Assembly (NCBI RefSeq): GCF_029525575.1
Contig: NZ_JAPDIA010000008.1
Span: forward strand, 1,798,001 to 1,862,000
Reading direction: 5' to 3'
Source: Cohnella rhizosphaerae
GTDB taxonomy: Bacteria > Bacillota > Bacilli > Paenibacillales > Paenibacillaceae
Length of the DNA: 64,000 nt
A program made the position numbers and the translations under genes. Every line of letters begins with the position of its first letter. Position 1 is the first letter of the stretch. The notes under the pieces are model-generated. The model ran no database searches, was not told the DNA's origin, and saw only the letters and a program-made list of their open reading frames with translations. This document shows positions 19,991-25,305 of this stretch, piece by piece.

Positions 19991-21537
19991 ATGGCCATGA
20001 TAACGAACAAACTCGCCAAAAGCTCCGCGGCCTTGGTCGCGCTGGGTCTCGTGCTTAGCGCTTGCGGCGGCAACAACGCCGAAAACGGGCAGTCCGCTTC
20101 GACGGCTCCGGCAGCCAGCGGCACAGCTAGCGGCACGGCTAGCGGCACGGCCGGCGGCGCTTCCGGCGCTGCGAACGGCTGGAAGGGCACGATCACGATG
20201 TACGCCCAGGTGTATACGCCCAACTCGAAAAATATCGCCGGATTGAAGCAGCAAACGGCGCTGCAGGAAGTCGCGGGCGAATACGAAGCCGCGCATCCCG
20301 GCATCAAGATCGAATTCGTCGACGAAGAATTCAAGGACTACACGCAAACGGTGCGGGTCAAAGCCGCTGCCGGCGAGCTGTTCGACGTATTTTGGGGTCA
20401 ATGGGCCGAATTGAACAACACCTTCCCCAAAGGCATCGCGGAGGACCTGACTCCCTATTTCAGCCAGCCGAACCCGTATATTCCCGGCAAAGCCACCTGG
20501 GGCGAAGCGATGAACGCCACCGTCGTGAGCGAGACGAAGTCTCCCGACGGCAAGAGCTACAACATCAACGGAGACTACGTGGCCACCGCGTTTTTCTACA
20601 ACAAGGATCTGTTCGCCAAAGCGGGCATCTCCCAGCCGCCGGGCAGCTGGTCGGAGTTGATCGAGACGACCAAAAAAGCTCAAGGACGCGGGCATTACGG
20701 CGATGTCGCAAGCGCCCGACTACGACTGGTTCCAGCGACACTTCCTGTCGGACTTCTACGCCAAGGAGTTCGAGCAAATCGCCGGCTTCGATCAAAGCCC
20801 GGGCGTCTCCTCGCTCGATCAGAGCGTCGCCATCGCCAAAGGCATGCTGAACACGTCCGACCCGCGCTTCATGGGCTGGTGGCCGATGTTCAAATCGTTG
20901 ACCGACAACTGGAAGCCCGACTATCTGTCGTCCGAGCCCGGCATCGTCGGCAGCAACGCCCGCAACGACTTCCTGGCCGGCAAAACAGCGATTTTCTACG
21001 ACGGCAGCTGGCTTCCGGAAAACGCGAAAGACGCCAAAGTCAGCTTCGAGCTCGGCTCCTTCAACTTCCCGGTGCTGGCGCAGGCGGACTCGCCGTATAC
21101 GACCGGCACCGACGTCTCCGGCGCGGTCGGCGGTCCCAACGCGGCCTTCCAATTCGCCGTCGCGACCAAGCAAGCCAACGCCTCGATGAAGGAAGCGGGC
21201 AAGCAAGCCGCCGTCATCGACTGGCTGCAATTCGTCGGCACGCCGAAAAACGTCGAGCGCATCGTCAACGAGCACGGCACCTTCGTACCGACCTGGCCGG
21301 ATACGAAGCCTGCGGAGAGCATGGCCGAGCTCGCCAATCAGGCGTCCAATGAATTGAAGGCGCTCGGCGTCGGCGGCTCCTCGCCCAACCTGAACAAAAA
21401 CATGCAGCGGATCTTCGGCCTCTATCTGAGCGGCAATATCGACATCGCCAAAGCGACCGCGGACGTTAAAAAAAGAGCTGGACGGGGCGATCAAGGAATA
21501 CCAATCGAAAAACAGCGTCGATCTCGGAAAATACTAA
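19991..21537 (+). CDS. ABC transporter sugar-binding lipoprotein, locus 1 (two frameshifts)
   Basis: This extracellular solute-binding protein of family 1 delivers an oligosaccharide to the two permeases downstream. The signal peptide ends in lipobox LSAC (about residue 25) followed by a Ser/Ala/Gly-rich tether with SGTASGTASGTAGG repeats. The core has GTITMYAQVYTP, EYEAAHPGIKIEFVDEEF, AAAGELFDVFWGQ and FFYNKDLFAKAGI. The frame breaks at A6 20672-20677 (corrected: TTKKLKDAGITAMSQAPDYDW) and A7 21468-21474 (corrected: DVKKELDGAIKEYQSKN, stop at 21535-21537). Both are one extra A. The start is at 19991 or the ATG at 19997, after GAGGGGGG. A hairpin after the stop may limit readthrough. Confidence 0.87.
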
Positions 21538-21556
21538 GGCGCCGAGAGGCTGCAAG

Positions 21557-21593
21557 AAAAAGGGGCCGCCGCTTCGCAGCGCTCCCTTTTTTT
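21557..21593 (+). terminator. Intra-operon terminator or attenuator
   Basis: A GC-rich stem with a TTCG loop (AAAGGG.. pairing with ..CCCTTT) ends in T7 between the binding-protein gene and the first permease. Such leaky terminators commonly keep binding-protein expression above that of the permeases; it also serves as the mRNA 3' end of the first gene. Confidence 0.6.
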
Positions 21594-21626
21594 CATCCTC
21601 CGAAGCCATGAAAGGACGAATGCCGC

Positions 21627-22509
21627 ATGACCGGAAAAGCCAAGCTGAAAACCGCGCTGACCGGATACGCCTTTATACTGCCGACGTTTATTTTCCTGAT
21701 CTGGTTCACGTATTATCCGGTCTACCAGGCGCTGATCGGCGCCTTCACCGATTGGGACGGCTTCAATGCGCCGCGCTATATCGGACTGGACAACTTCGTC
21801 CGTCTATTCGGCGACGAGGTACTGCGCCAATCGACGATCAACGCCTTGATCTGGGTCGTCCTGTCGATCGTGCTGGCCGTCGTACCGCCTTTTCTTGTTG
21901 CTGAACTGATCTTCCAGCTGCGGCGAGCGCGCGCGCAGTATATCTACCGGACGCTTTTCGTTCTGCCGATCGTCATCCCCGGCATCGTCACCATCCTGCT
22001 GTGGCGGTTTTTGTATCAGGGGGACGGCGCCATCAACCAGCTGCTTGAGCTGATCGGACTCGGCTCGCTTCAGCAGCTTTGGCTCGGCAATCCGAATATC
22101 GCGCTTTATTCGATCATCCTGATGGGCTTCCCGTGGATCAGCGCCTTTAATCTGCTCATCTTCTACTCCGGTCTGCAGAGCATCTCCACCGAGGTGCTGG
22201 AGGCCGCCAGGCTGGAAGGCGCGACCGGCTGGAAGCGCGTATGGCGGATCGACATCCCCTCCTCCTTCCCGCAGCTGCGTCTGATCGTCATCCTGACCTT
22301 GATCGGCAGCCTGCAGAACATCATCCCGCCGCTCATCATGACCAACGGGGGGACCCGGCTACTCCACTTACGTGCCGATTCTGCATATGTACAACGTCTC
22401 GACCGTTAACGGCGAGTTCGGGTACGGCATGTCGATCGCGCTGGTCATGTTCGTCGTCATCCTGCTGTTGACGCTGGTCAACATGAAGCTGGTCAAATCC
22501 GAATCCTGA
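21627..22509 (+). CDS. Sugar ABC transporter permease 1 (MalF/LacF type), locus 1, one frameshift
   Basis: This inner-membrane channel subunit of a CUT1 sugar importer shows six hydrophobic segments, beginning with GYAFILPTFIFLIWFTYYPV. The cytoplasmic EAA loop, which docks the ATPase, reads EAARLEGATGWKRVWRIDIP (about residues 195-214). The frame breaks at G6 22348-22353; dropping one G gives TNGGPGYSTYVPILHMYN and a final helix ending KLVKSES at 22507-22509. TNGGP is the usual family sequence, so the correction is firm. It begins 89 bases after the binding-protein gene and 17 bases before permease 2. No ATPase gene is present in the locus, so a shared MsmK-type ATPase encoded elsewhere is expected. 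Confidence 0.9.
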
Positions 22510-22526: not shown

Positions 22527-23354
22527 ATGCGCGCTCTCCGCCTGCCAGGAGCGGGGCAACTTTTGCTGCTGCTGCTGCTTGTGTTCAATCTGCTGCCCAT
22601 TTATTTCATTGTCGAAAACTCCGTCAAATCGCCGCTCGAATTCGCGTCCAGCACGCTGTCCTTCCCGAAATCGCTGCTATGGAGCAATTACGGCGCGGCC
22701 TGGGAGAAAGTCGGCCTGTCGCTGTACCACACGTCCGTCATCATCGCGGCCAGCGTCGTCGCCATCGTCGCTTTTTCCGCCATGAGCGCCTACTCCTTTT
22801 CCAAGCTTCGGTTTCCGCTCAAAAACACGCTCTTTCTGCTCGTATTCGGGCTTCTGCTGATTCCGGGCTTTCTGACGCTCATTCCGCTTTATTTGCAGAT
22901 CAAAAAGCTCGGCTTAAGCGACAGCTACCTGGCGCTTATCCTTCCGTATATCGCCGGCGGGCAGGCGTTCAGCATCTTTGTCCTCAAGACGTTTTTCGAG
23001 CAGTTGCCGGACGAGATCTTCGAGGCCGCCCGCATCGACGGCGCGGGCAACATCCGCATCTTCTCGACGATCGTGCTGCCGCTCTCCGTCCCGATCTGCA
23101 CGACGGTCGCCATCATCAATATCACCAGCCTGTGGAACGACTACCTTCTGCCTTCGCTGCTGCTCGATCGCAGTCATCAGACGATCACGATGGCGCTCGT
23201 CGCGTTCGAAGCCGCCGCCGGCAACTACGGCCTGAGCGACTACGGCGGCATGATGGCCGCCTACCTGATCGCGGCCGTCCCGCTGCTGCTGCTGTTCTCG
23301 CTGTTGATGCGGAACTTCGTCGAAGGTATTTCCAGCGGGTCGATAAAGATGTAA
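22527..23354 (+). CDS. Sugar ABC transporter permease 2 (MalG/LacG type), locus 1
   Basis: This is the second membrane subunit of the locus-1 CUT1 importer, 275 residues, intact. Six transmembrane segments are visible, the first being LLLLLLLVFNLLPIYFIV. The EAA loop EAARIDGAGNIRIFSTIVLP (about residues 169-188) and the C-terminal FVEGISSGSIKM are characteristic of MalG-type subunits. GGACAGGAGG precedes the start. It is the last recognisable gene of the operon; the next feature downstream is the 51-bp repeat array, followed by a plus-strand terminator at 24026, so the operon transcript may run through the array. Confidence 0.93.
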   Translation: MRALRLPGAGQLLLLLLLVFNLLPIYFIVENSVKSPLEFASSTLSFPKSLLWSNYGAAWEKVGLSLYHTSVIIAASVVAIVAFSAMSAYSFSKLRFPLKNTLFLLVFGLLLIPGFLTLIPLYLQIKKLGLSDSYLALILPYIAGGQAFSIFVLKTFFEQLPDEIFEAARIDGAGNIRIFSTIVLPLSVPICTTVAIINITSLWNDYLLPSLLLDRSHQTITMALVAFEAAAGNYGLSDYGGMMAAYLIAAVPLLLLFSLLMRNFVEGISSGSIKM

Positions 23355-23445
23355 GACGCCGAGTGCCTTCGGCCGATCGCTCAATCAAGCCCAAGAGGTC
23401 CCATCCGGAGCCACTTGGGCTCGGTTGGTGGTGCAGTTCCGCGAA

Positions 23446-23988
23446 GTAACTCTCTACAGCGTCTCTTGTGCTCGATTGGCCACACTTTTCCGCGAAGTAG
23501 CTCTGTACAGCGTCTCTTGCGCTCGATTGGCCACACTGTTCCGCAAAGTAACGCTGTACAGCGTCTCTTGCGCTCGATTGGCCACACTGTTCCGCAAAGT
23601 AACGCTGTACAGCGTCTCTTGCGCTCGATTGGCCACACTGTTCCGCAAAGTAACGCTGTACAGCGTCTCTTGCGCTCGATTGTCGACGCTGTTCCGCAAA
23701 GTAACGCTGTACAGCGTCTCTTGCGCTTGATTGTCGACGCTGTTCCGCAAAGTAACGCTGTACAGCGTCTCTTGCGCTCGATTGTCAACGCTGTTCCGCA
23801 AAGTAACGCTGTACAGCGTCTCTTGCGCTCGATTGTCGACGCTCCTCCGCAAAGTAACGCTGTACAGCGTCTCTTGCGCTCGATTGTCGACGCTACTCCG
23901 CAAAGTAACGCTGTACAGCGTCTCTTGTGCTCGATTGGCCACACTGTTCCGCAAAGTAGCTCTGTACAGCGTCTCTTAGGCGCTGCTG
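23446..23988. repeat. Array of eleven 51-bp direct repeats, each with a 14-bp palindrome
   Basis: Units start every 51 bases at 23446, 23497, 23548 and so on to 23956; the eleventh is truncated. Central units are almost identical and contain the perfect palindrome ACGCTGTACAGCGT (for example 23551-23564), flanked by CGCAA and TTGCG that can extend the stem. Most variation falls in one window after GCTCGATTG (GCCACACTGTT, TCGACGCTGTT, TCAACGCTGTT, TCGACGCTCCT, TCGACGCTACT). Because 51 is 3 x 17, several frames stay open on both strands and encode 17-residue repeats. None has a convincing ribosome site, so I do not call a gene. It is not a CRISPR array because whole units, not only spaced repeats, are conserved. 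Confidence 0.95.
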
Positions 23989-24025
23989 TTGAGGCCGACC
24001 ACTTGGTCATGTTTAGTGGCAAATA

Positions 24026-24066
24026 GCCCAATCGTCATTTTCATGACGATTGGGCCTTGTTTTTTT
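24026..24066 (+). terminator. Rho-independent terminator after the repeat array
   Basis: GCCCAATCGTCAT (24026-24038) pairs with ATGACGATTGGGC (24043-24055) across a 4-base loop and is followed by CTTGTTTTTTT on the plus strand. Its orientation fits a plus-strand transcript that passes through the 51-bp array, not the convergent MFS gene. Confidence 0.85.
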
Positions 24067-24072
24067 GCAACG

Positions 24073-25305
24073 CTACGTTGGATTGGCCGCATTCGCAGGC
24101 TCACCTGCGGACCTGCCCGTTCGCGCAACCGCGGCCCGGTCGAACCCGCTTGCCTTGATGAACCAGGCCGCGCCAAGCAGGACGCCCCCGGTCAACGCGA
24201 AGACGAGCGAGATGCCAAAGGCACTGCCTATGATTCCGCCAAGCAGCGGCCCGAGCACGAAGCCGAGCATATTCGCCGATTGGCTCAGGCTCACGGCTCT
24301 TCCCCGGAAATCGCTGTCGGCGAATCGCACGATCAGCGCGTTCAGCGACGGGAAGACGGCCGCATAGAAAAGGCCGTAGCCGAAGCGCAAGCCGGTGAAG
24401 GCCGCGACGCCGGGAACAAGGAGCTGCAGCAGACTGCCGATCCCGCCGCCAACAAGGCCGACGATCAGCGTTTTCCCCAAACCCCAGCGCCCGCCCATTC
24501 GTCCCCAAAAGGCGCCGGTCAATACGGTAGCCAGCCCTACAGCGGAGAATGCGATCCCCGAGCTAAGCATGGCATCGCTCTCGTCCGCGCCGAGTTCGAC
24601 GACATAGAGAGACAGCAGCGGCTCCAGCATGTAGGTCGACACCGTGACGACGACGATGATGCCATAAATACGAAGCAACATGGGCGCCTTCGCCGCCTGC
24701 CGCAAGTCTTGCCGAATGGTCGTTCGGACCGTATCGCGCCGTCGATTGGCTTCCCGGACACCCATGACAACCAACGCGGATAGGATCATTAGCGCACCGG
24801 AGAGGATGAAGCATCCCCGGAGGCCGATCCATGTGCTGATCAAGCCCCCTGCCAGCGGGCCGATAATGCTTCCAGCGGCTGTGGATGTCGACATGACGCC
24901 GAGCGCGTACCCGACATGTTTCTCCGGCGTATTGGTCCCGACCAGCGTCATGGATGCCGGATAGAAGCCCGCCATGACGCCCTGGAAGACGCGAACGGCC
25001 AGAAACGAGATCAAATCGAAGACGAAGATGTTGGCGAAATAAGCGAGACCAAGCCCGATGCCCGAACGGATCAGCATTGGCTTGCTGCCGAAGCGATCCG
25101 AGAGCGAGCCCCAGAACGGCGCGCATAAGCCGCTCACCAGGAAGCTGATCGAGATCGCGGCGCCGGCCCACGTCTCGACATGTTGAGCTACGCCAAGATC
25201 CTGTCGCAGAAACAAAGGGTAAAAGGGCGTGGACAGCGTGGCCGCCATGCCGTTGATAAACAGTCCGCACCAAAGCAGATACATGTTGCGTTTCCAATCG
25301 GGCAA
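24073..25305 (-). CDS. MFS drug/metabolite exporter (DHA1 family)
   Basis: This twelve-helix major facilitator protein of 410 residues probably exports small amphipathic compounds by proton antiport. The start is TTG at 25305 (PDWKRNMYLL), well placed 8 bases after AGGAGG. The motif-A loop between helices 2 and 3 reads GSLSDRFGSKPMLIRSG (about residues 66-82), and motif C-like GSIIGPLAGGLIS lies in helix 5. The second half repeats the pattern with GRMGGRWGLGKTLIVG. It lies 80 bases downstream of the flavin monooxygenase gene on the same strand, so the pair may process and expel the same compound; this link is inferred from position only. Confidence 0.88.
   Translation of the reverse strand: MPDWKRNMYLLWCGLFINGMAATLSTPFYPLFLRQDLGVAQHVETWAGAAISISFLVSGLCAPFWGSLSDRFGSKPMLIRSGIGLGLAYFANIFVFDLISFLAVRVFQGVMAGFYPASMTLVGTNTPEKHVGYALGVMSTSTAAGSIIGPLAGGLISTWIGLRGCFILSGALMILSALVVMGVREANRRRDTVRTTIRQDLRQAAKAPMLLRIYGIIVVVTVSTYMLEPLLSLYVVELGADESDAMLSSGIAFSAVGLATVLTGAFWGRMGGRWGLGKTLIVGLVGGGIGSLLQLLVPGVAAFTGLRFGYGLFYAAVFPSLNALIVRFADSDFRGRAVSLSQSANMLGFVLGPLLGGIIGSAFGISLVFALTGGVLLGAAWFIKASGFDRAAVARTGRSAGEPANAANPT

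Follow-up and report, generated by a model that had tools for sequence, protein, structure and literature searches.

Tandem arrays with units of about five helical turns in intergenic spacers of Cohnella: a possible class of DNA-shape elements

What kind of element is a 51-bp repeat, present in eleven copies in strict register between a transporter gene and its terminator? The repeat lies in a window (the whole stretch of DNA analysed) of 64,000 nucleotides from Cohnella rhizosphaerae, assembly GCF_029525575.1, contig NZ_JAPDIA010000008.1, positions 1,798,001 to 1,862,000 of the forward strand; the genome is termed G000 here. TRF delimits an array at 23436..23977 on the plus strand, with a unit of 51 bp and 10.6 copies (542 bp in total, 94% matches, no indels). 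The palindrome ACGCTGTACAGCGT, with up to two mismatches allowed, has 11 matches, the first at 23449 and the last at 23959, spaced exactly 51 bp apart; 0.17 would be expected. The eleven repeats of the original prediction are therefore real, and the perfect 14-bp palindrome that it placed in each of them is found in eight: copies 3-10 (23551..23921, +) are exact, while copy 1 (23449..23462, +), copy 2 (23500..23513, +) and copy 11 (23959..23972, +) carry two mismatches each. A degenerate unit lies in register upstream of the array, at about 23388..23438 on the plus strand (L001:1346-1396), with 15 of 27 core positions matching.

The upstream gene encodes an ABC permease (BPD_transp_1; 22527..23354, +), whose stop codon precedes the array by 82 bp, and the convergent downstream gene encodes an MFS transporter (24073..25305, minus strand). 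A sugar importer had been proposed upstream; the permease is confirmed, and sugar as the substrate is plausible, judging from a solute-binding gene farther upstream. The intrinsic terminator expected on the plus strand at 24026 was also found (24026..24066), with a stem at 24026-24055 followed by a T tail, so that the array is 3' of the gene and ahead of the terminator. The stem core is common to G000 and its relative G010, in which the orthologous site is otherwise much shorter: left homology stops at 23359 and right homology starts at 24034, and the 674-bp G000 stretch at 23360..24033, which includes the whole array, corresponds to 17 bp in G010. The genes for the solute-binding protein and first permease (19991-22409) appear split across reading frames. 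SBP_bac_1 covers only residues 87-235 of the first upstream open reading frame and the overlapping second frame has no Pfam match, which suggests frameshifts resulting from decay or from assembly error; the listed completeness of this genome is 91.54%. Gene calls throughout are approximate, having been made with a home-made gene finder, and the own genome is an unfinished assembly.

Queried with three units, the own genome gave 58 matches; those outside the window array mostly have 69-77% identity. Searches with array units found matches in 6 of 37 Cohnella genomes, the own genome counted, and in 1 of 118 genomes sampled from the family, again the own genome. Against genome contigs, a 22-mer in which two positions are degenerate located eight stretches, all from Cohnella (the own genome possibly lying outside this search). 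The same 22-mer had no match in viral contigs, nor did the window array in plasmids or phages. These matches dispel the concern, raised with the original prediction, that the unit might not be conserved beyond this strain. Within G000, palindrome-family units are present at 29 of 31 loci examined, these loci having been preselected by similarity search.

When TRF was run on the regions around family matches, neighbouring arrays were encountered that differ in sequence and have the same period; for this reason we sampled 20-kb stretches placed regardless of sequence, counting noncoding arrays with a period of at least 30 bp. Arbitrarily placed stretches totalling 2.0 Mb from seven Cohnella genomes contain 79 such arrays, 61 of which have periods of 50-53 bp (44 at 51 bp, 13 at 52 bp, three at 50 bp and one at 53 bp, with 18 at other periods). 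By comparison, 400 kb sampled from five further genera of this family yielded three noncoding arrays, one of them at 51 bp, and one 50-kb stretch of E. coli contained no such arrays. The density of 50-53-bp arrays ranges from 7 to 62 per Mb across the Cohnella genomes, compared with 1 in the 400 kb of controls.

We assembled a set of 104 unique noncoding arrays, each of 2.8 copies or more, which includes loci fetched for similarity. Of these, 97 arrays with periods of 47-93 bp group into 47 sequence clusters, and the modal period is 51 bp in 33 clusters, 52 bp in five, 50 bp in two and another value in seven; 40 of the 47 clusters therefore lie at 50-52 bp. Individual unit spacings follow the same pattern (625 of 663 are 49-52 bp and six more are 53 bp; 21 of the 663 are 62-bp spacings contributed by two 62-bp arrays). 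The trait that is kept across these many sequence-distinct clusters is thus a unit length of 50-52 bp, or about five helical turns. Irregular spacings within arrays number only seven and gave no usable signal. Two 47-bp arrays do not correspond to an integral number of turns, and among the 15 periods outside 50-52 bp a hand count of those close to whole turns gave six against 4.3 expected, which is not significant. Two loci have unusual architectures: a noncoding array at L105:17258-18837 consists of 7.7 units of 204 bp (96% matches), 204 being 4 x 51, and at L034:3343-4707 a single spacer houses adjacent arrays of two families, where a step of 30 bp separates 51-bp units.

Unit length is accompanied by a periodic distribution of A/T. 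In the circular A/T spectra of 30 distinct 51-bp clusters the fifth harmonic (10.2 bp) dominates, with a power of 3.29 (z 12.3), compared with about 1 for shuffles and an average of 1.40 for array-free intergenic 51-mers, none of 2000 subsamples of 30 reaching 3.29. The 52-bp clusters (n=6) peak at k=5 (z 4.9) and the 62-bp arrays (n=2) at k=6 (z 5.0). The signal is weak in the 50-bp clusters (n=4; k=5 ranked third, z 1.9) and in one 93-bp unit (k=9, z 2.1), and units of 72 and 73 bp, contrary to the rule, favour k=8 (9.0-9.1 bp) over seven turns. Of 40 clusters, 21 have k=5 as their strongest A/T harmonic. WW steps keep to this phase and SS steps are displaced from it by 5.0-5.1 bp, a pattern seen in G000, G001 (44% GC) and other Cohnella. 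Clusters whose stems do not exceed 4 still show the phasing (n=18, z 7.4), as do those drawn solely from arbitrarily placed stretches (n=31, z 12.2), and it also stands out from shuffles that preserve dinucleotides (z 10.5); in coding arrays fifth-harmonic power is 1.4 or less in 11 of 14. The arrays can therefore be described as helically phased DNA, with A/T recurring once per turn and G/C half a turn off, above shuffles, and the near match of 51 bp to five helical turns, pointed out at the outset, gains strong support from dozens of sequence-distinct units. In the window array itself 10.20 bp is the strongest A/T period among 3 to 60 bp, a value equalled by 0.9% of shuffled window units, although the exact figure of 10.2 rests on unit length because the within-unit spectrum is broad.

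Variation among units was compared in 47 arrays, in which G/C variants occupy 79 of 534 of the most in-phase A/T columns and 45 of 162 of the most out-of-phase ones (Fisher p 0.0015, two halves compared); the mirror test on G/C columns of the same arrays was not significant (p 0.37). This lower variability of in-phase columns could represent decay of an ancestral pattern. Outside the arrays the AA/TT period is noisy, ranging from 9.2 to 11.45 among Cohnella genomes, and the AA/TT peaks of non-array spacers, at 10.20 in G000 and 10.25 in G001, possibly stem from decayed arrays. A 51-bp hairpin array from another genus of the family (L134:10793-11246 in G040) is without the fifth harmonic, so the evidence for the phased class is confined to Cohnella.

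The fate of the arrays at orthologous sites was followed by comparing eight G000 array sites with up to three relatives (G010, G026 and G031), the flanks being about 78-97% identical. Array sequence is common to relatives at site B in G026 and, partly, at site A in G026 and G031. The tandem array is missing from the window site in G010, from site F in G031, from site B in G010 and G031, from site E in all three relatives and from site G in G026, where a unit-like stub is left. Dissimilar sequences of nearly equal period occupy three sites in G000 and G010 (51 versus 52 bp at F, 51 and 52 bp at A, 52 and 51 bp at G); these replaced units resemble each other weakly (p 0.01 to 0.5), so they may still share a remote common descent. 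At site C, G026 contains a distant 51-bp relative (p 0.004), whilst G010 has a 72-bp array and G031 a 91-bp array, and the period is therefore not absolute. The right flank of site D is not comparable in most relatives. Since arrays are readily missing at orthologous sites, no single one of them can be essential.

Relative to genes, 55 of 59 arrays of 50-53 bp could be placed, with 21 in convergent, 32 in co-directional and two in divergent spacers, or 37.6, 17.6 and 2.6 arrays per 100 kb of non-array intergenic DNA, respectively. Stem-loops in general favour convergent over divergent spacers according to the excerpts available of PMC1590033, so on that evidence this part of the positioning is ordinary. 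In G000, 26 of the 27 sites that could be scored have palindrome-family units running in the same direction as the upstream gene, among them 18 of 18 co-directional ones; the 27 sites are the 31 loci minus two without units and two with units on both strands, and some of them have one to three units only or an upstream gene call more than 1 kb distant. This orientation goes beyond what shape alone explains, and transcription cannot be separated from replication as its cause because most of the contigs concerned are biased in gene and replication direction. When arrays are oriented by A[AG]TAAC, 24 of 26 agree with the upstream gene, although 16 of these are convergent and agree by necessity; amongst the co-directional arrays seven of nine agree and two do not.

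Several established repeat classes can be compared with these arrays. A CRISPR array is rejected because the repetition extends over all 51 bp, at 94% matches, leaving no unique spacers, and a protein-coding repeat is rejected by 21 arrays without codon-position bias (Fisher p 0.99) and by units of 50, 52 and 62 bp, which break the frame. A single sequence characterises REP units, which occur together with Y1 transposases. The Cohnella arrays resemble BIME-2/REP of E. coli as palindrome-bearing arrays in spacers, but they are free in sequence and fixed in period. Y1_Tnp (PF01797) is present in 12 of 37 genus genomes and absent from array-bearing G000, G001, G026 and G031 (array-bearing G010 has one match), which leads us to reject REP/BIME elements with a RAYT; the 47 sequence clusters among 97 units likewise reject a single conserved palindrome. 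MIRU form one related sequence family of tandem units of tens of bp that follow the direction of adjacent genes. Like MIRU and other bacterial intergenic minisatellites, the Cohnella arrays occupy many spacers, with units of tens of bp joined head to tail, and vary in presence among relatives; they accordingly qualify as intergenic minisatellites, but what 40 of 47 clusters share is period and A/T phasing rather than sequence. In the excerpts available of PMC3940949, A/T runs phased with the helix in prokaryotic genomes are tied to curvature, and intrinsic bends are proposed at plectoneme tips. The arrays have such runs in helix phase; the signal described in these excerpts is genome-spread, whereas that in Cohnella is concentrated in tandem arrays with units of five turns. 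The claim that the repeat belongs to no named family holds in so far as an Rfam scan of the window gave 0 matches above gathering score and no description of these arrays was found in the open-access literature searched, subscription papers being largely outside its scope. The excerpts of PMC4060949 deal with tandem repeats with units of up to 11 bp and with close direct repeats.

It is possible to read the array at the level of RNA, as a 3'-UTR element in which hairpins, or palindrome duplexes between units, would stabilise or tag the mRNA. Its place after the stop codon and ahead of a terminator with a stem core found also in G010 fits this reading, as does the sense orientation of the palindrome family, although the latter is confounded with replication direction through gene and skew bias. 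The window array and terminator fold as RNA with a z of -8.3 against 20 shuffles, mostly through pairing of self-complementary palindromes from different units; 8 of 40 clusters have a stem of at least 7, compared with 5% in shuffles; and at L045:3234-3675 two different stems are mixed among otherwise similar 51-bp units, the stem having been swapped with most pairs kept. A universal hairpin is nevertheless rejected by the 63 arrays folded (one from another genus), of which 15 have z below -2, with a mean z of -0.77 and 2 of 19 in G001, and A/T phasing is equally clear without hairpins. The proportion of paired cells among palindrome-family units is the same as in shuffles (72.5%), and both-side pair changes number 4 against 2.4 (31 of 500 shuffles), a covariation that is at most suggestive. 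Thus the position proposed for a 3' RNA stands while the moderately enriched hairpins argue less for it, and we regard this role as unlikely. Arrays of 62, 62 and 93 bp at L099:4246-5193, L196:4756-5157 and L105:4302-5256 contain strong A-loop hairpins, e.g. CATGCACATAAAATGTGCATG. A sequence-specific protein that binds the palindrome, the array serving as operator or decoy, would account for eight perfect copies at exact 51-bp spacing and for AGTAAC/GTTACT in 9 of 40 clusters, where 0.6 are expected. However, the other 31 clusters lack AGTAAC, which rejects it as a universal motif, and the same sites in G010 have dissimilar sequence or nothing. Because most other clusters are without this palindrome, only the DNA-level part of the protein-binding option originally suggested, bending or wrapping, fits, and an operator or decoy is the least probable of the readings considered.

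A topoisomerase could recognise shape in place of sequence. The excerpts available of PMC6379681 describe BIME-2 as strong, transcription-independent gyrase sites, report enrichment of gyrase sites 3' of highly transcribed operons and in BIME-2, define the E. coli motif as phased 10-bp G/C variation with an arm period of 10.75 bp, and note that 35-52-bp fragments wrap on the GyrA CTD. Judged by that account, the arrays share place and phasing with E. coli gyrase sites, and A/T and G/C alternate once per helical turn, half a turn apart, as in the gyrase motif and in nucleosome-like rotational phasing. Arms of 10.75 bp, however, predict units of about 54 bp and not 51, whereas the unit lengths give 10.2-10.4 bp (the within-unit spectrum alone being too broad to serve), and we find it improbable, slightly more so than an RNA role, that these are strong sites for gyrase or another topoisomerase, functionally like BIME-2. 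The main competing explanation invokes helix-stepped slippage and no function: curved or wrapped DNA would duplicate in five-turn steps, by slippage or topoisomerase-linked recombination, and yield neutral or selfish minisatellites, the third option originally put forward. Period and phasing would then reflect how arrays form, and the arrays would be tolerated in 3' spacers, where they do no harm. Turnover and loss at orthologous sites, degenerate edge units and the recurrence of one family at 29 of 31 similarity-picked loci are all consistent with this, and purifying selection alone would lead to avoidance of divergent (promoter) spacers. It is less easily reconciled with the roughly twofold preference for convergent over co-directional spacers per non-array bp, with phasing that survives in clusters diverged beyond recognition, and with the lower variability of phased A/T columns, although decay of an ancestral pattern could explain the last. 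We consider such an origin possible, but not the better reading.

The reading that we favour, at about even odds (roughly 0.5), is that the window array belongs to a Cohnella-wide class of DNA-shape elements locked to five turns, which curve or wrap DNA where transcription ends. The probabilities of these readings overlap and need not sum to one. With A/T on one face and an integral number of turns per unit, bends would add along the array, whereas other lengths would scramble them, and the DNA would curve or wrap coherently, alone or around a wrapping protein. Length would be fixed with sequence free because integral turns let bending accumulate, and unit length would not drift because non-integral turns would break the phase. 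The helical repeat of free DNA is about 10.5 bp, and phasing below the helical repeat favours a left-handed path, which is the writhe of positively supercoiled or of nucleosome-like wrapped DNA; a phase of 10.2 bp would therefore fit left-handed writhe, and hence positive supercoils or a wrapping protein. Positive supercoils would be expected to accumulate where transcription units end or collide. Together, a left-handed path and such build-up point to a likely role at 3' ends, in which the arrays would take up supercoils or hold them in place, or else serve as an anchor for a nucleoid or topoisomerase complex. More speculatively, the arrays may comprise hundreds of sequence-free shape codes, under selection solely for an integral five-turn unit and nucleosome-like A/T phasing, that wrap DNA to the left and store positive supercoils generated at gene ends or where genes converge, as a bacterial counterpart of nucleosome-positioning DNA; this extended version is doubtful.

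Repeats are usually classed by sequence, whereas in these arrays length and helical phase are kept while the sequence at a given site turns over between species. Should helix-stepped slippage prove to be the true explanation, the arrays would reveal how such minisatellites form. If the shape reading is confirmed, they would provide a route to shape-selected elements that sequence searches miss, and Cohnella genomes would offer many natural replicates for testing how bacteria handle supercoils at 3' ends.
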